The position numbers and the translations under genes are program-made. Below the pieces are notes generated by a model. The model made no database searches. It worked only from the letters and a program-made list of their open reading frames with translations, and had not been told where the DNA came from. From a virus: 46,261 bases of DNA. How positions within the stretch are numbered: the stretch's first letter is position 1; the number at the start of each line of letters is the position of its first letter. Of the stretch, positions 29,772 to 39,319 are shown in pieces. The stretch is from the IMG/VR virus record IMGVR_UViG_3300029259_000671, positions 1 to 46,261 of that record. The stretch is one strand, 5' to 3'.

Positions 29772-29847
29772 TGGTACGCCTAGCAGGATTTGAACTTGCG
29801 ACCAAAGAATTATGAGTTCTCTGCTCTAACCGCTGAGCTATAGGCAC
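29772..29847 (-). tRNA. tRNA with CAT anticodon, probably tRNA-Ile2 (reads AUA after lysidine modification)
   Basis: A 76-nt cloverleaf with encoded CCA. Acceptor GTGCCTA / TAGGCGT (two wobble pairs at the end), D-arm GCTC/GAGC, anticodon stem GAGAA/TTCTT with loop CTCATAA (anticodon CAT), variable loop TGGTC, T-arm GCAAG-TTCAAAT-CCTGC with one A-C mismatch. The anticodon loop plus TTTGGTCGC variable region resemble bacterial tRNA-Ile2 rather than Met tRNAs, so it likely decodes AUA after TilS modification. The mismatch and wobbles suggest slow decay. It directly abuts the stop codon of the 52-residue gene. Confidence 0.85.
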
Positions 29848-30006
29848 TTAATTGTTGCAAAGCTCAATCTTATCTACAAAACCTTGAGCGCCTTCCACGC
29901 CTCTATTGGCTCGGTCTCGTAAAAACTTTAGCCAATAAGCTTTGGCGCATGACTCTGTGACCTCATGATAATAATCATAGGCTTGCTGGTTAGTTAGTTC
30001 GCACAT
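29848..30006 (-). CDS. Small hypothetical protein upstream of the tRNA
   Basis: A 52-residue soluble protein (MCELTNQQAYDYYHEVTESC to KIELCNN), mostly helical with basic patches and three cysteines. The ribosome site AGGGA lies 7 nt upstream of the ATG. Its TAA ends on the base next to the first tRNA base, so the tRNA must be cut from the same transcript. No family is recognised. Confidence 0.65.
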   Translation of the reverse strand: MCELTNQQAYDYYHEVTESCAKAYWLKFLRDRANRGVEGAQGFVDKIELCNN

Positions 30007-32173: not shown

Positions 32174-34726
32174 TTACGCCACGCCATCCTCTACATTCTC
32201 AAAGTCATCTTTGACGGATATACCTAATAGACCGCGACCACGTATTCCGTACGTGTCTCTGATCTTTTCTACGTATGTTCGCGCTTCCAGTTTTTTGTTC
32301 AGTGTTCTAGCGTTACTGATATACCTCAGCTCCCCGCGTACTTCAGCAAACTGTTTCCAACTCGCCCACAGCGCCGCGTTAGTAGCGACCTTATCCCGAC
32401 CAATCTCACAGCATTCTTCTATCCACTCAGCGAGTAGGTCCATATCGCTTTTATACTCGTCACGCGCTTCCTCAACGATGGCTGGCGGGTTTAGCCCTAT
32501 CTCTAAATAAGCCATCGCGCCGCGAACCAGCCACGCCAGGATGCCTTCATACTCAGCCTTGAGCTTTTCGCTACGGTCGTTGTCTTTGGCAATATCGGGG
32601 TCGGTACTGAAGTTACGGGTAAAGGGTACAAGCATAATGCGGCGCCAGATGCCGAAGTCGTCACCTTTAATGATAGGCTTGTGGTTGGTGGGCAGAATGA
32701 CTGTCCATGTGGGCGTGAACTGTACGAAGGTGCGCGAGTATGCCGCGCGCGCTGCCATCGCCTCACCGCCAGTCATCGATTTGATCAACCCTTCTTTTAG
32801 TTCGCGGTCTTCATCAGGCTCAGTCACATAAACAAAGCGACTGCCGCGAAGGCGTAGGATATCGTCACGCGGACCGCCAGCATTAGCACCGCCACTACCT
32901 AAGAATGTCTCATTGGATGCGGTAATAGCGTGTGCGCCCATCGCGTCACGGATAGCGCCTAAGACAGTCGACTTACCATTACTACCAGTGCCGTACGGTA
33001 TGACGATGATGTCTTCTTTAGGATCCGCAAGTAGCGTGTAACCCATCAGACGTTGGAAGAACTCGACCAGCTCAGTATCACCGTAAAAACATTCGCTAAC
33101 GGTTTGCTCAAATAGTGGGCATTTAGCATCAGGCTTATACTTGGTGTGACTGGCGATAGTGATACGGTCCAGTCTGTCAGACGGTATTAGCGCACCTGTG
33201 GTTAAATCGATAGCCCCATTGGCCACACCAAACAGCATTTTGTTAGCGTCCAAGTCCCCTGTATTTACTAAGATGCTTTTTTCAGTACGGATGATCTTAA
33301 CCATGGCGGTCATCATGGCGACTTTTAGACTGTTCTTAACGAAGTCGTATTGATCACTGGCCAAGATACCCTGCTCAGCGCCATCAGCGATAAGCTGCAT
33401 GAGCGTATCTTTGGATAACTGCTCAAGCTCAGCCTGTGCCGATACGCGCCAGTAACTCCCTGTCCAGCGATACCAGGTCTCAGTATCCGCAGCAAACATG
33501 ATGTTGTCACCAAACAACTCAAGCATCTTGCGAGCGTTACCGAACTCGGTATATTGCATCTGACGTTCTAAGTTCTCAGCGCTGGTATCACGTCCAAGCC
33601 CTAAAAGCGTATTGATGTTGGCATCAGAGATAGACTGCTTCATCATCGCTTTGTATTTTGTCTTGGCAGTCGCACGTACTTCATTACAAGTGATAACTTC
33701 GTTTTTATCTAGCTCACGACCAATAGCGCGTAACGTCTCTTCAAACTCAAAGCCATCGCTACACTCTTCGATGCGGTCTTTGTAGTCTTGGATAGCATCA
33801 CGTTTCTGTGCGCGTTTTTGCTGCGTATTGGCATCATTGCCCCACTTGAGCAATGTGCGAATGGTGATACCGCCACCATCGTGACCAAAGCCCGACCAGC
33901 GTTTTTCTAGGTCTTCATCACTTGAATAGTTATCCGCTTTTTGCGACCAGTCATCCCAAACGTTAAACGCATCATCACTACCGTCGTACTCATGATGCAG
34001 AGCCATACCAACTTGTAACCAGCGGTCGTAGTCCGCAGCATCAAGGTTATTGAGTAGCTTTGCCGCTTCTTTTAGCGTCACGCCTACTTTGGCACCAGCA
34101 GTGAAGTCTTCAGGATCAGCTTTACCGCTATTGATAGTCTTAGTAGATGAGCCGCTACAAACTTGCATACCGGCATCTAGCGCCATTTGCTCAAAGACTT
34201 CTAACACTTGCGTTATTTCATCAGCAGTGACTATCGGTAGCTCAGACGCTGGCGTGTATTCCAGACCGCCAAGCATATCAGTCCACTCGTACGGCTCCTT
34301 AGTATCAGGGTGAATATGGTATGCGACGAACTGCTGCCCTTTGCCTAGTATCTCGACACGCTGCTTTATGTCGCTACCATCTGTAAACCAACGGCTTGCC
34401 GCTTTAGACCAGCCGCTATCGCTAGCTCGGTATACAAGCATCGTCTTTGGCGCTTGTCCGACACGCTCAACGGTCATACCTAAATTGTCATGACACCACT
34501 GCGCTAATGCTGACGCCAGTTCAGGGTTCAGCACATCGATGTCGATGGCACACACTGGATACTCACCAATACCGCACTTCACACCGATACCTGCGTCGAT
34601 ATCGTCAGCGGTAAAGGTCTTCTTTTGCCACTCTTTGATCATTGGCCCCTTTTGGCCTTTATTAATAGGTACGATGCTATACGCGCCGTCACACAGTCTT
34701 TTTGCTTGCATATTGTGGTCACTCAT
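32174..34726 (-). CDS. Phage primase-helicase, P4 family (prim-pol + D5-type SF3 helicase)
   Basis: An 850-residue replication initiator. Residues 10-160 form an archaeo-eukaryotic prim-pol domain with the acidic motif AIDID (Asp62, Asp64) and RVEILG plus YHIHP (His137, His139). Residues 220-300 form a PriCT-type helical domain (YDRWLQVGMALHHEYDGSDDA). Residues 480-850 form the D5-type SF3 helicase with Walker A near 579-587 (GTGSNGKST). It would prime and unwind the phage DNA, and perhaps bind the adjacent iterons. The ATG at 34726 follows the stop of a 59-residue gene by 3 bp, with AAGGAT 10 nt upstream. Confidence 0.92.
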   Translation of the reverse strand: MSDHNMQAKRLCDGAYSIVPINKGQKGPMIKEWQKKTFTADDIDAGIGVKCGIGEYPVCAIDIDVLNPELASALAQWCHDNLGMTVERVGQAPKTMLVYRASDSGWSKAASRWFTDGSDIKQRVEILGKGQQFVAYHIHPDTKEPYEWTDMLGGLEYTPASELPIVTADEITQVLEVFEQMALDAGMQVCSGSSTKTINSGKADPEDFTAGAKVGVTLKEAAKLLNNLDAADYDRWLQVGMALHHEYDGSDDAFNVWDDWSQKADNYSSDEDLEKRWSGFGHDGGGITIRTLLKWGNDANTQQKRAQKRDAIQDYKDRIEECSDGFEFEETLRAIGRELDKNEVITCNEVRATAKTKYKAMMKQSISDANINTLLGLGRDTSAENLERQMQYTEFGNARKMLELFGDNIMFAADTETWYRWTGSYWRVSAQAELEQLSKDTLMQLIADGAEQGILASDQYDFVKNSLKVAMMTAMVKIIRTEKSILVNTGDLDANKMLFGVANGAIDLTTGALIPSDRLDRITIASHTKYKPDAKCPLFEQTVSECFYGDTELVEFFQRLMGYTLLADPKEDIIVIPYGTGSNGKSTVLGAIRDAMGAHAITASNETFLGSGGANAGGPRDDILRLRGSRFVYVTEPDEDRELKEGLIKSMTGGEAMAARAAYSRTFVQFTPTWTVILPTNHKPIIKGDDFGIWRRIMLVPFTRNFSTDPDIAKDNDRSEKLKAEYEGILAWLVRGAMAYLEIGLNPPAIVEEARDEYKSDMDLLAEWIEECCEIGRDKVATNAALWASWKQFAEVRGELRYISNARTLNKKLEARTYVEKIRDTYGIRGRGLLGISVKDDFENVEDGVA

Positions 34727-34909: not shown

Positions 34910-35063
34910 GCCAGACTCCTAATTGCTCGTAGTGTTTGTTCCAACTCGCTCTGAGTGTCGCGATAGTTGCATCGGTAAATATCAAAGCCGGTATAGGACT
35001 TATTGATTGGTGACAGCATCTATCGCTGTCTGCTAAGTGATGTGGGCAGTCCTCGCAACTCAT
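34881..35063 (-). CDS. Small CxxC protein downstream of CII-like gene
   Basis: A 60-residue protein with an N-terminal CEDCPHHLADSDRCCHQ segment: four cysteines and three histidines, suggesting metal binding. The rest is a helical region with tryptophans (LRASWNKHYEQLGVWHVLEH). It overlaps the CII-like stop by 4 bp (ATGA) and has AGGGG upstream. The likely role is a small regulatory or DNA-metabolism protein; nothing specific can be proposed. Confidence 0.65.
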   Translation of the reverse strand: MSCEDCPHHLADSDRCCHQSISPIPALIFTDATIATLRASWNKHYEQLGVWHVLEHHNLV

Positions 35064-35443
35064 AATGTGCCCCTTGGACGATAAGTGCCCTCAGCAATCT
35101 GCGTCTTAGCGTCATCATGAAAAAAATCATCGACTTCCTCCAAGCGTTGAAAATTGTCTTTGGCCAATCGAAACAAGATGTCGATTTTCGATGCGTCGTA
35201 ACACTTCATGTTTGCCGGAACCACCTTTAAACCGCAGAACGCCAACATGTCGCAGAGCTTTACTACTTTGCTTTCTGTGTTATTGGCGTCTAACCAGCGA
35301 CCGACTGTGGTTGTATCTACGCCGATGCAGTCCGCTACATTCGTTTGCTTGTTCGCTGCAACGGCTTGCACGATTTGAGACTGCATGTTGCGTGACCATG
35401 CAAGCTGTTCGAGTGATAATTGATTTGTGGCCTTAGTTGTCAT
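35060..35443 (-). CDS. CII-like phage transcriptional activator
   Basis: A 127-residue protein of the phage CII family. Residues 24-62 form a helix-turn-helix (QIVQAVAANKQTNVADCIGV, DTTTVGRWLDANNTESKVVK), followed by LCDMLAFCGLKVVP typical of CII and a basic tail (YRPRGTL). In lambda it drives lysogeny by activating PRE and PI. It is the second gene of the minus-strand early operon, 2 bp behind the Cro-like gene. Its target promoters are not identified. Confidence 0.85.
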   Translation of the reverse strand: MTTKATNQLSLEQLAWSRNMQSQIVQAVAANKQTNVADCIGVDTTTVGRWLDANNTESKVVKLCDMLAFCGLKVVPANMKCYDASKIDILFRLAKDNFQRLEEVDDFFHDDAKTQIAEGTYRPRGTL

Positions 35444-35445
35444 GG

Positions 35446-35676
35446 TTAAGCTTCCTCTAGTTGGTTTATTTTTAGCAGATACTCATTTAATTCTGTTTGC
35501 GCCTTAATCAGCGCAGCCCCACTTTCGTACGAAAGTCGCGGTTTATCTACCCCACGGTTTAAATCGCTAATAGTCCCTTGATGAACCTTAGTTAATAGTG
35601 AAAGCTCGGTTTGCGTATGGTGTTCGAGCAAAAAACGGACTAGCTCATTCCAGTTTGGTGATGCGACATCTTTCAT
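35446..35676 (-). CDS. Cro-like helix-turn-helix repressor
   Basis: A 76-residue XRE-type DNA-binding protein with a helix-turn-helix near residues 20-42 (TQTELSLLTKVHQGTISDLN, RGVDKPRLSYESGAALIKAQ). Size, position and divergent orientation to the CI-like gene mark it as Cro. It is the first gene of the minus-strand early operon, from a promoter overlapping two operators. It would compete with CI for the operators and shift the switch to lytic growth. Confidence 0.85.
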   Translation of the reverse strand: MKDVASPNWNELVRFLLEHHTQTELSLLTKVHQGTISDLNRGVDKPRLSYESGAALIKAQTELNEYLLKINQLEEA

Positions 35677-35707
35677 AGTTTGAATACTCCAAAAACGTTA
35701 GTAATTC

Positions 35708-35736
35708 ATAATATCGTTTTTACGTTATTAATACAA
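35708..35736 (-). promoter_or_regulatory. PR-like early promoter (minus strand) driving cro
   Basis: On the minus strand -35 TTGTAT (35736-35731) and -10 TATTAT (35713-35708) are spaced by 17 bp. One operator lies between the boxes and another overlaps the -35 box, so CI binding would occlude polymerase. It reads into the Cro-like gene with about 25 nt leader. Confidence 0.7.
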
Positions 35737-35774
35737 CGCTAAAACGTTATTAATTTTTATCATAATTACGATAA
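35711..35774. promoter_or_regulatory. Operator cluster A (three 18-bp CI/Cro-like sites)
   Basis: Sites ATATCGT-TTTT-ACGTTAT (35711-35728), ACAACGC-TAAA-ACGTTAT (35733-35750) and TTATCAT-AATT-ACGATAA (35757-35774) share the pattern ATAWCGT-N4-ACGWTAT. Centre spacings are 22 and 24 bp. They span the divergent cro/cI region; the third covers the CI promoter's -10. Confidence 0.7.
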
Positions 35775-35775
35775 T
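35747..35775 (+). promoter_or_regulatory. PRM-like promoter of the CI-like gene
   Basis: -35 TTATTA (35747-35752) and -10 GATAAT (35770-35775) with 17-bp spacing, 21 bp before the CI ATG. The weak -35 fits an activator-dependent PRM. The ribosome site AGGAG lies between. Confidence 0.5.
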
Positions 35776-35796
35776 CAATATAAGTAGGAGATCACC

Positions 35797-36453
35797 ATGT
35801 TGAACACTGTTGGAAAAAGACTTAAGAAGGCGCGTACAGATGCCAAAATGACACAAAAAGAATTGGCGGATGCCGTTGACGCAAAGCAAGGCGCGATATC
35901 CGACTTAGAAAACGGACGTAATAATAGTTCTACTAAGCTGGTACAAATGGCAATTGTATTAGGTGTCAACCCAAGGTGGTTGTCTACCGGCATAGGAGAG
36001 GAAAGAGGTGGCGACGTTAATTTTTGGAGAAAAGATCTAAGCGATGAAGGCATACCTGTTTACCAAGCATCTGCTATTAAGTCACTACTAGATAATGAGT
36101 TTATAATGCCAGTAGGCTATGAGCCTTGTCCCGTGGGCGTTAACAAGGACGGTTATTTTTGGGCGCTTATAGATGACAACAGTATGTCCCCTGAATTTAA
36201 GCTGAACGACCGCGTTATGTTTTCTCCTAAGTACGTACCAACGCCTGGGACGTTCGTGATAGCAATACTTGATGATTACGAAGAGTCAGTATTTAGAAGA
36301 TGGAGGCCTATGGGCTATGATCCGATTACAGACGATGAGTACTATTGGTTAGAAGCTATTAACTCTAACTACCCGCACATAGATAGCAGACATACCAAAT
36401 TTTCGACTTACGCCGTAGCAATGACTCATAAAAGAGACCTTATCGTGTTTTAA
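35797..36453 (+). CDS. cI: CI-like prophage repressor (XRE HTH plus S24/LexA-like domain)
   Basis: A 218-residue repressor. Residues 8-40 form an XRE helix-turn-helix (MTQKELADAVDAKQGAISDL). Residues 105-218 are a peptidase S24-like domain with candidate nucleophile Ser129 (DDNSMSPEF). At the place of the catalytic lysine the sequence reads VFRRWR, and no Ala-Gly cleavage pair is obvious in the linker, so self-cleavage may be lost. The start has AGGAG at good spacing. It is flanked by two operator clusters and ends in a terminator. Confidence 0.88.
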   Translation: MLNTVGKRLKKARTDAKMTQKELADAVDAKQGAISDLENGRNNSSTKLVQMAIVLGVNPRWLSTGIGEERGGDVNFWRKDLSDEGIPVYQASAIKSLLDNEFIMPVGYEPCPVGVNKDGYFWALIDDNSMSPEFKLNDRVMFSPKYVPTPGTFVIAILDDYEESVFRRWRPMGYDPITDDEYYWLEAINSNYPHIDSRHTKFSTYAVAMTHKRDLIVF

Positions 36454-36478
36454 CACTACATAAATATGAATACTCAGA

Positions 36479-36502
36479 AGCCCGCCGTTGTGCGGGTTTT
36501 TT
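36479..36502 (+). terminator. Rho-independent terminator after the CI-like gene
   Basis: CCCGC / GCGGG stem with a 6-nt loop and six T on the plus strand, 26 bp after the CI stop. Confidence 0.8.
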
Positions 36503-36518
36503 ATTGTCTAAAATTTAA

Positions 36519-36579
36519 ATAACGTAAAAATGATAAATAATAACGTTTAACTGTTTACTTGATATCGTTATTACGATAT
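36519..36579. promoter_or_regulatory. Operator cluster B (three CI/Cro-like sites)
   Basis: ATAACGT-AAAA-ATGATAA (36519-36536), ATAACGT-TTAA-CTGTTTA (36540-36557, right arm degenerate) and ATATCGT-TATT-ACGATAT (36562-36579, perfect 7-bp arms) share the cluster A pattern, with 21-22 bp centre spacing. They sit in front of the plus-strand early operon. Confidence 0.7.
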
Positions 36580-36582
36580 TAT
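36554..36582 (+). promoter_or_regulatory. PL-like early promoter (plus strand)
   Basis: -35 TTTACT (36554-36559) and -10 TATTAT (36577-36582) spaced by 17 bp. The perfect operator lies in the spacer and the middle operator overlaps the -35 box, mirroring the arrangement on the cro side. It would start the plus-strand operon of replication genes through xis and int. Confidence 0.65.
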
Positions 36583-36670
36583 CATTTCATCGCAACGAGA
36601 TATACCGAGTCGACGAGACAGCGATTAACTATTTAACGCCAATGAAACTAGAAAATTAAAAGGAATAACC

Positions 36671-38056: not shown

Positions 38057-39319
38057 ATGGCACACGCCAAACTAAGCCCATCATCGAGTGGACGGTGGCT
38101 CACCTGCCCCGCTTCACCCTTGATGGAGGACGGTAAACCGGACAGCACCAGTATTTATGCTGCTGAAGGAACTGCCGCACATTATCTAGCCGAACAAAGC
38201 TTGTCGTTCGGACATACCGCCCCCGCCGAGCGCGTAGGTGAAAGCATCCTAGTCTTTGATAACGGTGATTGTTGTTTTGAGCAAGATCGCAAAGATTGGA
38301 TGCCCAAAGATGTATTCGCTAAGTTTGAAATCACGCAAGACATGGCGGCGTATGTACAAGTCTACATCGACCTAGTGGACGATTTAGTAGCTAGCACCCA
38401 AGGCGATTTGTTTGTAGAAGAACGCTTGAGTCTTACGCCGCTCACTGGTGAGGAAGGCGCAGGTGGCACCGCAGACGCGGTAATACTGACCGATGATGAA
38501 ATTATCATTGCGGATTTGAAGTATGGGCAAGGCTTAAAGGTAGACGCTGAGAATAATACCCAGCTCATGATTTATGGCCTTGCAGCATTGGAAGAATACA
38601 GTTTGATTGGCGACTTCAAGCGCGTTCGATTAATCATCAGCCAACCGCGACTGCATCATGTCAGCGAGTGGACCGCTGATATTGACACGCTTAATGCTTT
38701 TGCCAAGCGCGTGTCCAATACGGCAAAGCTGATTAATAGTCTAGATGTTAGCAGCGACTTAACAGAGCTATTCGCACCTAGTGTGAACGCTTGCCGCTAC
38801 TGCAAAGCCAACACGGAATGTAAAGCGCTCGCTGAGCACAACATCAAATTAGTCAGTGACGACTTTGAAAGTTTAGACGACGCTTACACCGTAAGCGATG
38901 CGAAGTACGACAGCGATACGCTCGCCAAGGTTTACGGGCAAATTGACTTGCTCAAAGACTGGATAAAAGCCGTTGAGCAAGGGACTTACGCCAAGCTCAT
39001 AAACGGTGAAAGCGTCGGGGATTTGAAACTGGTGGAAGGTCGCAGCGGCGCCCGTAAATGGTCGGACGCAAACGAGGCTGAAACCACGCTCAAGTCAATG
39101 CGCTTAAAAGTCGATGAAATGTACGACAAGAAAATCATTAGCCCTACTACTGCTGAAAAACTCGCTAAAGCTGGAACATTAGGTGATACGCAGTGGGACA
39201 AACTACAAGCCATTATTGTAAGACCTGAAGGTAAGCCAAGTATTGCCACGGGTAACGATCCAAGACCCGCCCTCTCTTTTAACACTGTCGAAGACTTCGA
39301 CGATATAACCAACGTATAG
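38057..39319 (+). CDS. DUF2800 nuclease (PD-(D/E)xK, Cas4/AddB-like with Fe-S cysteines)
   Basis: A 420-residue protein of the DUF2800 family, a phage relative of RecB-type exonucleases. Candidate catalytic residues: Asp140 (GGTADAV), Asp153 and Lys155 (IADLKYG) and Gln169. Cys17 (LTCPAS) and Cys246, Cys249 and Cys255 (CRYCKANTEC) match the one-plus-three cysteine pattern of [4Fe-4S]-bound nucleases. It would process DNA ends for recombination. It belongs to the widespread DUF2800-DUF2815-DNA polymerase-VRR-helicase module. Confidence 0.88.
   Translation: MAHAKLSPSSSGRWLTCPASPLMEDGKPDSTSIYAAEGTAAHYLAEQSLSFGHTAPAERVGESILVFDNGDCCFEQDRKDWMPKDVFAKFEITQDMAAYVQVYIDLVDDLVASTQGDLFVEERLSLTPLTGEEGAGGTADAVILTDDEIIIADLKYGQGLKVDAENNTQLMIYGLAALEEYSLIGDFKRVRLIISQPRLHHVSEWTADIDTLNAFAKRVSNTAKLINSLDVSSDLTELFAPSVNACRYCKANTECKALAEHNIKLVSDDFESLDDAYTVSDAKYDSDTLAKVYGQIDLLKDWIKAVEQGTYAKLINGESVGDLKLVEGRSGARKWSDANEAETTLKSMRLKVDEMYDKKIISPTTAEKLAKAGTLGDTQWDKLQAIIVRPEGKPSIATGNDPRPALSFNTVEDFDDITNV

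Follow-up and report, generated by a model that had tools for sequence, protein, structure and literature searches.

In the virus record IMGVR_UViG_3300029259_000671, the whole 46,261-nucleotide stretch of which (positions 1 to 46,261) is here called the window, a region around a CI-type repressor gene has the features expected for immunity control in a temperate phage of the lambda type, and we put the probability at roughly 0.92 that six palindromes in it are paired operators of CI (and Cro), i.e., OR1 to OR3 and OL1 to OL3. An earlier note on this DNA had described two clusters at 35711-35774 and 36519-36579 with centre spacings of 21 to 24 bp. These positions and spacings proved correct, the centres being 22 and 24 bp apart in the OR array, which lies in the gap between cro and cI, and 21 and 22 bp apart in the OL array beyond the cI terminator. 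The note had also given all six sites the form ATAWCGT-N4-ACGWTAT; six palindromic sites are present, but only those starting at 35711 and 36562 match the consensus at 14/14 positions, whereas the others match at 10 to 12. The operators, none of which is assigned to a strand, are listed below; all were identified by consensus match and a de novo palindrome search, OR1 and OL1 also by shuffles.

35711-35728: OR1 operator ATATCGTTTTTACGTTAT, 14/14, within the PR spacer
35733-35750: OR2 operator ACAACGCTAAAACGTTAT, 12/14, over the PR -35
35757-35774: OR3 operator TTATCATAATTACGATAA, 11/14, over the putative PRM -10
36519-36536: OL3 operator ATAACGTAAAAATGATAA, 12/14
36540-36557: OL2 operator ATAACGTTTAACTGTTTA, 10/14, over the PL -35
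36562-36579: OL1 operator ATATCGTTATTACGATAT, 14/14, within the PL spacer

Only the spacing of the sites and the top scores are informative against chance, not the counts for the whole window, in which consensus matches with up to three mismatches show no excess (9 versus 7.5 expected from shuffles). A 14/14 site, of which the window has two, was absent from 200 dinucleotide shuffles of the window, and 0/200 of the shuffled windows contained a triplet of sites of at least 10/14 spaced 20 to 25 bp, compared with two in the real DNA. After 2,000 shuffles of each intergenic stretch, a triplet was seen in 2, and the best totals were 30 and 31 versus the observed 37 and 36. Because the consensus used in these shuffle tests was derived from the six sites themselves, a de novo palindrome search was applied in the same way to the real DNA and to its shuffles, and it recovered the six sites with 110.7 bits, the maximum for 15 shuffles being 84.5 bits.

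The gene order around the arrays is that of a lambdoid region. The cI gene and a Cro-like gene are divergent, with one operator array between them, and a second array of the same sequence follows at 36519-36579, past the cI terminator and before PL and the exonuclease operon. Leftward, the early region comprises the Cro-like gene, a CII-like gene and a primase gene; rightward, cI is followed on the same strand by a DUF2800 exonuclease operon. The genes adjoining the arrays and the predicted terminator are as follows.

35060-35443, minus strand: CII-like regulator gene, second in the PR operon (phrog_725 'CII-like regulator', E=1.3e-20)
35446-35676, minus strand: Cro-like helix-turn-helix (HTH) repressor gene, 76 amino acids, first in the PR operon (phrog_8038/6831; weak HTH_3 match)
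35797-36453, plus strand: cI repressor gene, 218 amino acids, HTH_3 N-terminal and S24-like C-terminal domains (Pfam HTH_3 2.8e-10, Peptidase_S24 4.1e-7; phrog_4 5.2e-31)
36476-36501, plus strand: intrinsic terminator 3' of cI, between cI and OL (sequence prediction)

The relatives carry a GC hairpin and a T run at the position equivalent to this terminator. The match of the CII-like gene to Pfam Phage_CII (0.0087) is below the cut-off. Within the window phage, the Cro helix HQGTISDLNRG is similar to the CI helix KQGAISDLENG.

The earlier note had placed a PR-like or PL-like promoter with a 17-bp spacer at each array, with one operator in the spacer and one over the -35, and this arrangement was confirmed in the sequence.

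35708-35736, minus strand: putative PR promoter, TTGTAT-17-TATTAT, -35 at 35736-35731, -10 at 35713-35708 (sequence; offset shared with PL and L003)
36554-36582, plus strand: putative PL promoter, TTTACT-17-TATTAT, -35 at 36554-36559, -10 at 36577-36582 (sequence; conserved geometry)
35747-35775, plus strand: putative PRM promoter for cI, TTATTA-17-GATAAT, weak -35 (predicted)

The -10 offset from the outer operator (OR1 or OL1) is equal at PR, at PL and at both promoters of the related phage L003. The starts predicted from these promoters, near 35701 (minus strand) for PR and near 36589 (plus strand) for PL, put the centres of OR1 and OL1 at about -18.5 and those of OR2 and OL2 at about -40.5. 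With respect to the predicted PRM start, the centre of OR2 is likewise at about -40.5, and OR3 covers the putative PRM -10. In lambda, OR2 lies at about -42 from PRM, compared with about -40 in the window phage.

Comparison with related phages indicates that the arrays belong to an exchangeable immunity cassette and track the HTH of the repressor. L004, L005 and L006 have the same backbone as the window phage (primase 90-95% and exonuclease 80-82% identical), with cI/cro and both arrays different; DNA homology ends at the cassette and restarts at 36577 (L006) or 36588 (L004), i.e., right at the OL1 edge or slightly outside it. For L004 and L005, the same de novo search revealed a palindrome of their own, different from that of the window, on either side of cI. 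As judged by eye, L006 repeats the OL of L183, and the CI proteins of these two phages are closely similar in the HTH. L005/L014 and L006/L183 are two further cases in which both HTH and OL are alike. Conversely, L003 has a more distant backbone (exonuclease 60% identical), a different CI C-terminal domain and a Cro with 54% identity, but its recognition helix is nearly the same (SQGQISDLENGRNKSS versus KQGAISDLENGRNNSS), and the de novo search recovered the same palindrome in 3+3 sites spaced 19-33 bp. Moraxella catarrhalis phage Mcat13 (KR093637) combines an unrelated backbone with an HTH of 62% and a Cro of 57% identity and the helix SQGSISDLEVGRNKIS; its cI-cro gap carries ATATCGCTTAAGCGATAT and ATATCGTTTTAGGGATAT, and ATATCGTTTAAACGATAT sits 2.3 kb beyond cI. 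The motif QG.IS is common to the Cro-like proteins of the window phage, L003 and Mcat13. Since L003 and Mcat13 share helix and palindrome with the window phage, the operator sequence is tied to the helix of CI and Cro, as expected of OR and OL. The OR/OL logic of lambda that the earlier note had proposed is therefore supported, as all three of its predictions hold, namely the cassette swap (less clearly for L006), the same palindrome with the same helix and the repeated geometry of PR and PL. A blastn comparison of the OR region with phages gave matches at chance level only. The predicted OL site of Mcat13 corresponds to positions 2476-2493 of L098 and to 29975-29992 of KR093637, and past cI the Mcat13 record shows no annotated genes over the stretch 27636 to at least 32500, despite the OL and PL predicted there.

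From this arrangement we infer a switch in which CI, and Cro with another order of preference, would bind OR1 to OR3 in the cro-cI gap and OL1 to OL3 past the cI terminator. CI at OR1 and OR2 would cover the spacer and the -35 of PR and silence the operon of cro, the CII-like gene and the primase gene, and CI at OL1 and OL2 would do the same at PL for the exonuclease/recombination operon. OR2 is positioned like lambda OR2 and may activate PRM, whereas OR3, over the PRM -10, could mediate autorepression of cI. By analogy with HK022 and phiKO2, CI multimers probably bridge OL and OR across about 800 bp.

The earlier note had remarked on this distance, with the two arrays only about 800 bp apart around a single cI gene and hence close enough for looping. 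The value is right, with about 807 bp between OR2 and OL2 as opposed to about 2360 bp in lambda (from the annotated operators, NC_001416), but the layout is no novelty, given that the cI gene of lambda is also located between OR and OL and that HK022 and phiKO2 are as compact, with OL-OR distances of about 700 and 630 bp, respectively, and repressors that both loop in vivo (PMC8053113). Among the relatives, the gap between cI and OL ranges from <1 kb to about 3 kb, because accessory genes occupy it. Rather than reflecting a distance set for looping, the short gap of the window phage seems to be a rex-like cargo slot that is empty. The gap holds a SocA/Panacea protein and a 125-amino-acid protein in L011 (282-1241), a 312-amino-acid protein in L003 (5789-6727) and proteins of 280 and 149 amino acids in L018 (4517-5786), which are of RexA/RexB-like sizes and have no PADLOC match.

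Several observations weigh against the operator interpretation. OL2 (36540) is a poor palindrome with one perfect half-site and 3/7 matches in the other half, and the OL array may therefore act as two sites plus a half-site. For L006, the unbiased search yielded no palindrome set of clear significance. The OR sites of Mcat13 are 64 bp apart and its OL has one strong site, so the 3+3 tandem layout is not universal. The consensus matches of PR (8/12) and PL (9/12) are weak and promoter-like hits in the region do not exceed those in shuffles, and the case for the promoters consequently rests on their conserved geometry. Finally, cooperativity of CI should not be assumed, since its C-terminal domain is divergent. 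Part of this would fit a two-site layout in which only OR1, OR2 and OL1 (perhaps also OL3) are real and the weaker sites represent chance matches in AT-rich DNA. The 10/14 score and the poor second half of the site at 36540, the 66 sites of at least 10/14 in the window versus 54 expected and the OL of L101, which by eye seems to have only two good sites, as well as the single strong OL site of Mcat13, point in this direction. Such a layout is nevertheless unlikely in our view, given that no spaced triplet arose in 200 shuffles of the whole window and that L003, with another CI C-terminal domain, has three sites per array at a spacing of 19-33 bp.

The palindromes might also be bound by another regulator than CI, be it in the form of Cro-only control or by a host factor. 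The QG.IS helix motif is present in both Cro and CI, which makes the two inseparable by sequence alone, but in heteroimmune relatives the palindrome and the entire cI/cro cassette are replaced as one, with the flanking genes constant, a behaviour not expected of a host factor, and we regard this explanation as very improbable. Less improbable, but still doubtful, is a further reading in which the arrays are real CI operators that act independently, with no loop between OL and OR. The OL-OR interval varies from about 0.8 kb in the window phage to about 1.9 kb in L003 and about 3 kb in Mcat13, so that selection on distance is not obvious, and the C-terminal domain of the window CI is degenerate; yet all three lambdoid repressors in the loopometer study form loops, two of them at 630-700 bp (PMC8053113). 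Paired operators of CI and Cro, probably bridged by CI, represent the preferred interpretation of the six palindromes.

The C-terminal domain of the window CI deserves attention of its own. In an alignment of 51 distinct S24-type CI sequences including that of the window, the catalytic serine is kept in 51/51 (Ser129 within SMS in the window CI), whereas the catalytic lysine, present in 49/51, is replaced by Arg167 in the window CI, and the place of the scissile Ala-Gly bond reads QASAIK, compared with QAG or AAG in the relatives. The other exception at the lysine position is the CI of L006, which has Arg together with VTG. Despite these losses, Peptidase_S24 is still detected in the window CI by Pfam. 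Since the catalytic Lys and the Ala-Gly bond are lost, RecA-stimulated self-cleavage, as predicted from the residues, is probably not to be expected, and a recognizable S24 domain that lacks both points to induction by a route other than RecA-stimulated self-cleavage. Antirepressor routes are known for repressors of the Gifsy type (PMC3121763) and the N15 type (PMC10432266). In the window, no antirepressor was identified, exact LexA boxes are absent, and near-matches are fewer than expected by chance. An AlphaFold model of CI was poor (predicted local distance difference test score of 51, with only the HTH confident) and was not used.

Directly after OL, the predicted PL transcript opens with a leader element that is followed by TAACTATTTAAC.

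36589-36625, plus strand: PL leader element ATCGC-N15-GTC-GACGA-GAC-A-GCGAT, an outer stem with a boxB-like GACGA hairpin (alignment of relatives)
36629-36636, plus strand: CTATTTAA, conserved boxA-like motif past the hairpin (YTATTTAA in all nine aligned leaders)

A hairpin of the form NNN-GA[CT]GA-NNN with a YTNTTTAA motif is present directly after OL in the window, L004, L005, L006, L014, Mcat13, L099, L101 and L104, and every true member has the motif as YTATTTAA. The inner stems covary (GTC/GAC, GCT/AGC, GCA/TGC, GCG/CGC and AGC/GCT), and composition-shuffled loci gave zero matches to the pattern. Of the ten regular-expression hits, that in L051 was put down to chance. A scan of the collection with another pattern revealed eleven stretches, 8/11 of them on contigs with the element behind a CI gene, of which L183 and L185 are new; the inner stem was paired at 3/3 positions in every CI-linked case checked. 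The hits in L184, L186 and L187 were rejected, as their inner stems are not fully paired and no CI gene was seen adjoining. L096 is also among the carriers of the GA[CT]GA hairpin with YTATTTAA. Altogether, the element was found in at least ten phages and remains constant while the neighbouring operators change; L018 and L003 are without it. The 11/14 match at 36584, which is in phase with OL1, was rejected as a seventh operator, because it is situated within this leader, which is conserved in heteroimmune phages, most of ATCGCAACGAGAT being kept in L004 and L005.

In this element, for which a GNRA-like pentaloop was sought by comparison with nut sites, a 3-bp stem carries a GAYGA loop and the stems covary. 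The succession of hairpin and motif resembles boxB and boxA in the order of ribosomal RNA leaders. Rfam has no family near the gathering score for the leader, a blastn search against phages gave no match, and folding of single sequences made only L005 stand out (z -2.8), so that it is the comparison that supports the structure. A search of the PL side of the window found no Arg-rich N-like open reading frame (25-130 amino acids, ATG start only, Shine-Dalgarno match, at least 4 Arg per 18 residues), and the window, including its PR side, has no second copy of the leader above chance. Our best guess is that the PL leader is a candidate antitermination element of the nut/put kind. More tentatively, it could be the first member of a new family of antitermination RNAs for early operons, characterized by a GA[CU]GA pentaloop hairpin and a boxA-like UAUUUAA, independent of a phage N and constant beside an exchanged cassette. 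The leader may also provide homology for the exchange of immunity cassettes.

Apart from the early region, the window carries a tyrosine integrase, a terminase, a head protease and a Q-like protein. In the interval from the packaging genes to the Q-like gene lies a tRNA-Met gene (CAT anticodon; 29772-29847, minus strand). The primase (32174-34726) and the exonuclease (38057-39319) exhibit 45-47% identity to their counterparts in Bordetella phage BPP-1 and related phages. Close relatives of CI were limited to one among the viral contigs and none among the genome contigs, and the latter also contained no relatives of the exonuclease.

The operator arrays add a well-supported example of a known architecture, and greater interest could attach to the PL leader and the degenerate peptidase of CI. 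With its covariation across heteroimmune phages, the leader could be a new antitermination element, a proposal open to testing. Moreover, sets of closely related phages that differ in their immunity cassettes, and whose operators can be read from the sequence, represent a natural panel for connecting recognition helices with their operators outside the enterobacteria.

Compared with known systems, the window phage shares with lambda (OL-rexBA-cI-OR-cro, NC_001416) the order of genes, a cI flanked on either side by three operators, the location of OR1 and OL1 within the promoter spacer and of OR2 and OL2 over the -35, and a CII-like gene after cro; in contrast to lambda, it has no rexAB, no recognizable N or lambda-like nut pair, and a CI missing both the S24 Lys and the Ala-Gly bond. 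HK022 has a similarly compact OL-OR arrangement around cI (PMC8053113) and an RNA element directly after PL (putL, PMC9378689), but its OL2 and OL3 are 53 bp apart, whereas the sites of the window phage are close-set, and its put elements are two-stem RNAs of about 70 nucleotides after both PL and PR (PMC9378689), as opposed to a leader of about 37 nucleotides with a GAYGA hairpin. For phiKO2, looping of the CB repressor has been demonstrated (PMC8053113), and the N15 repressor is non-proteolytic (PMC10432266); both are linear plasmid prophages, whereas the window phage has a tyrosine integrase. Repressors of Gifsy-type prophages are likewise not expected to self-cleave on DNA damage, but those of Gifsy-1 and Gifsy-2 (LT2) comprise only 136 amino acids (PMC3121763), whereas the window CI keeps a catalytically degenerate S24 domain. 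Mcat13 differs in its intact S24 Lys and Ala-Gly bond, in an OL about 2.3 kb past cI and in the wider distances between its other sites, but it has the same operator core ATATCGT-N4-ACGATAT, like recognition helices of CI and Cro and the same kind of PL leader hairpin.
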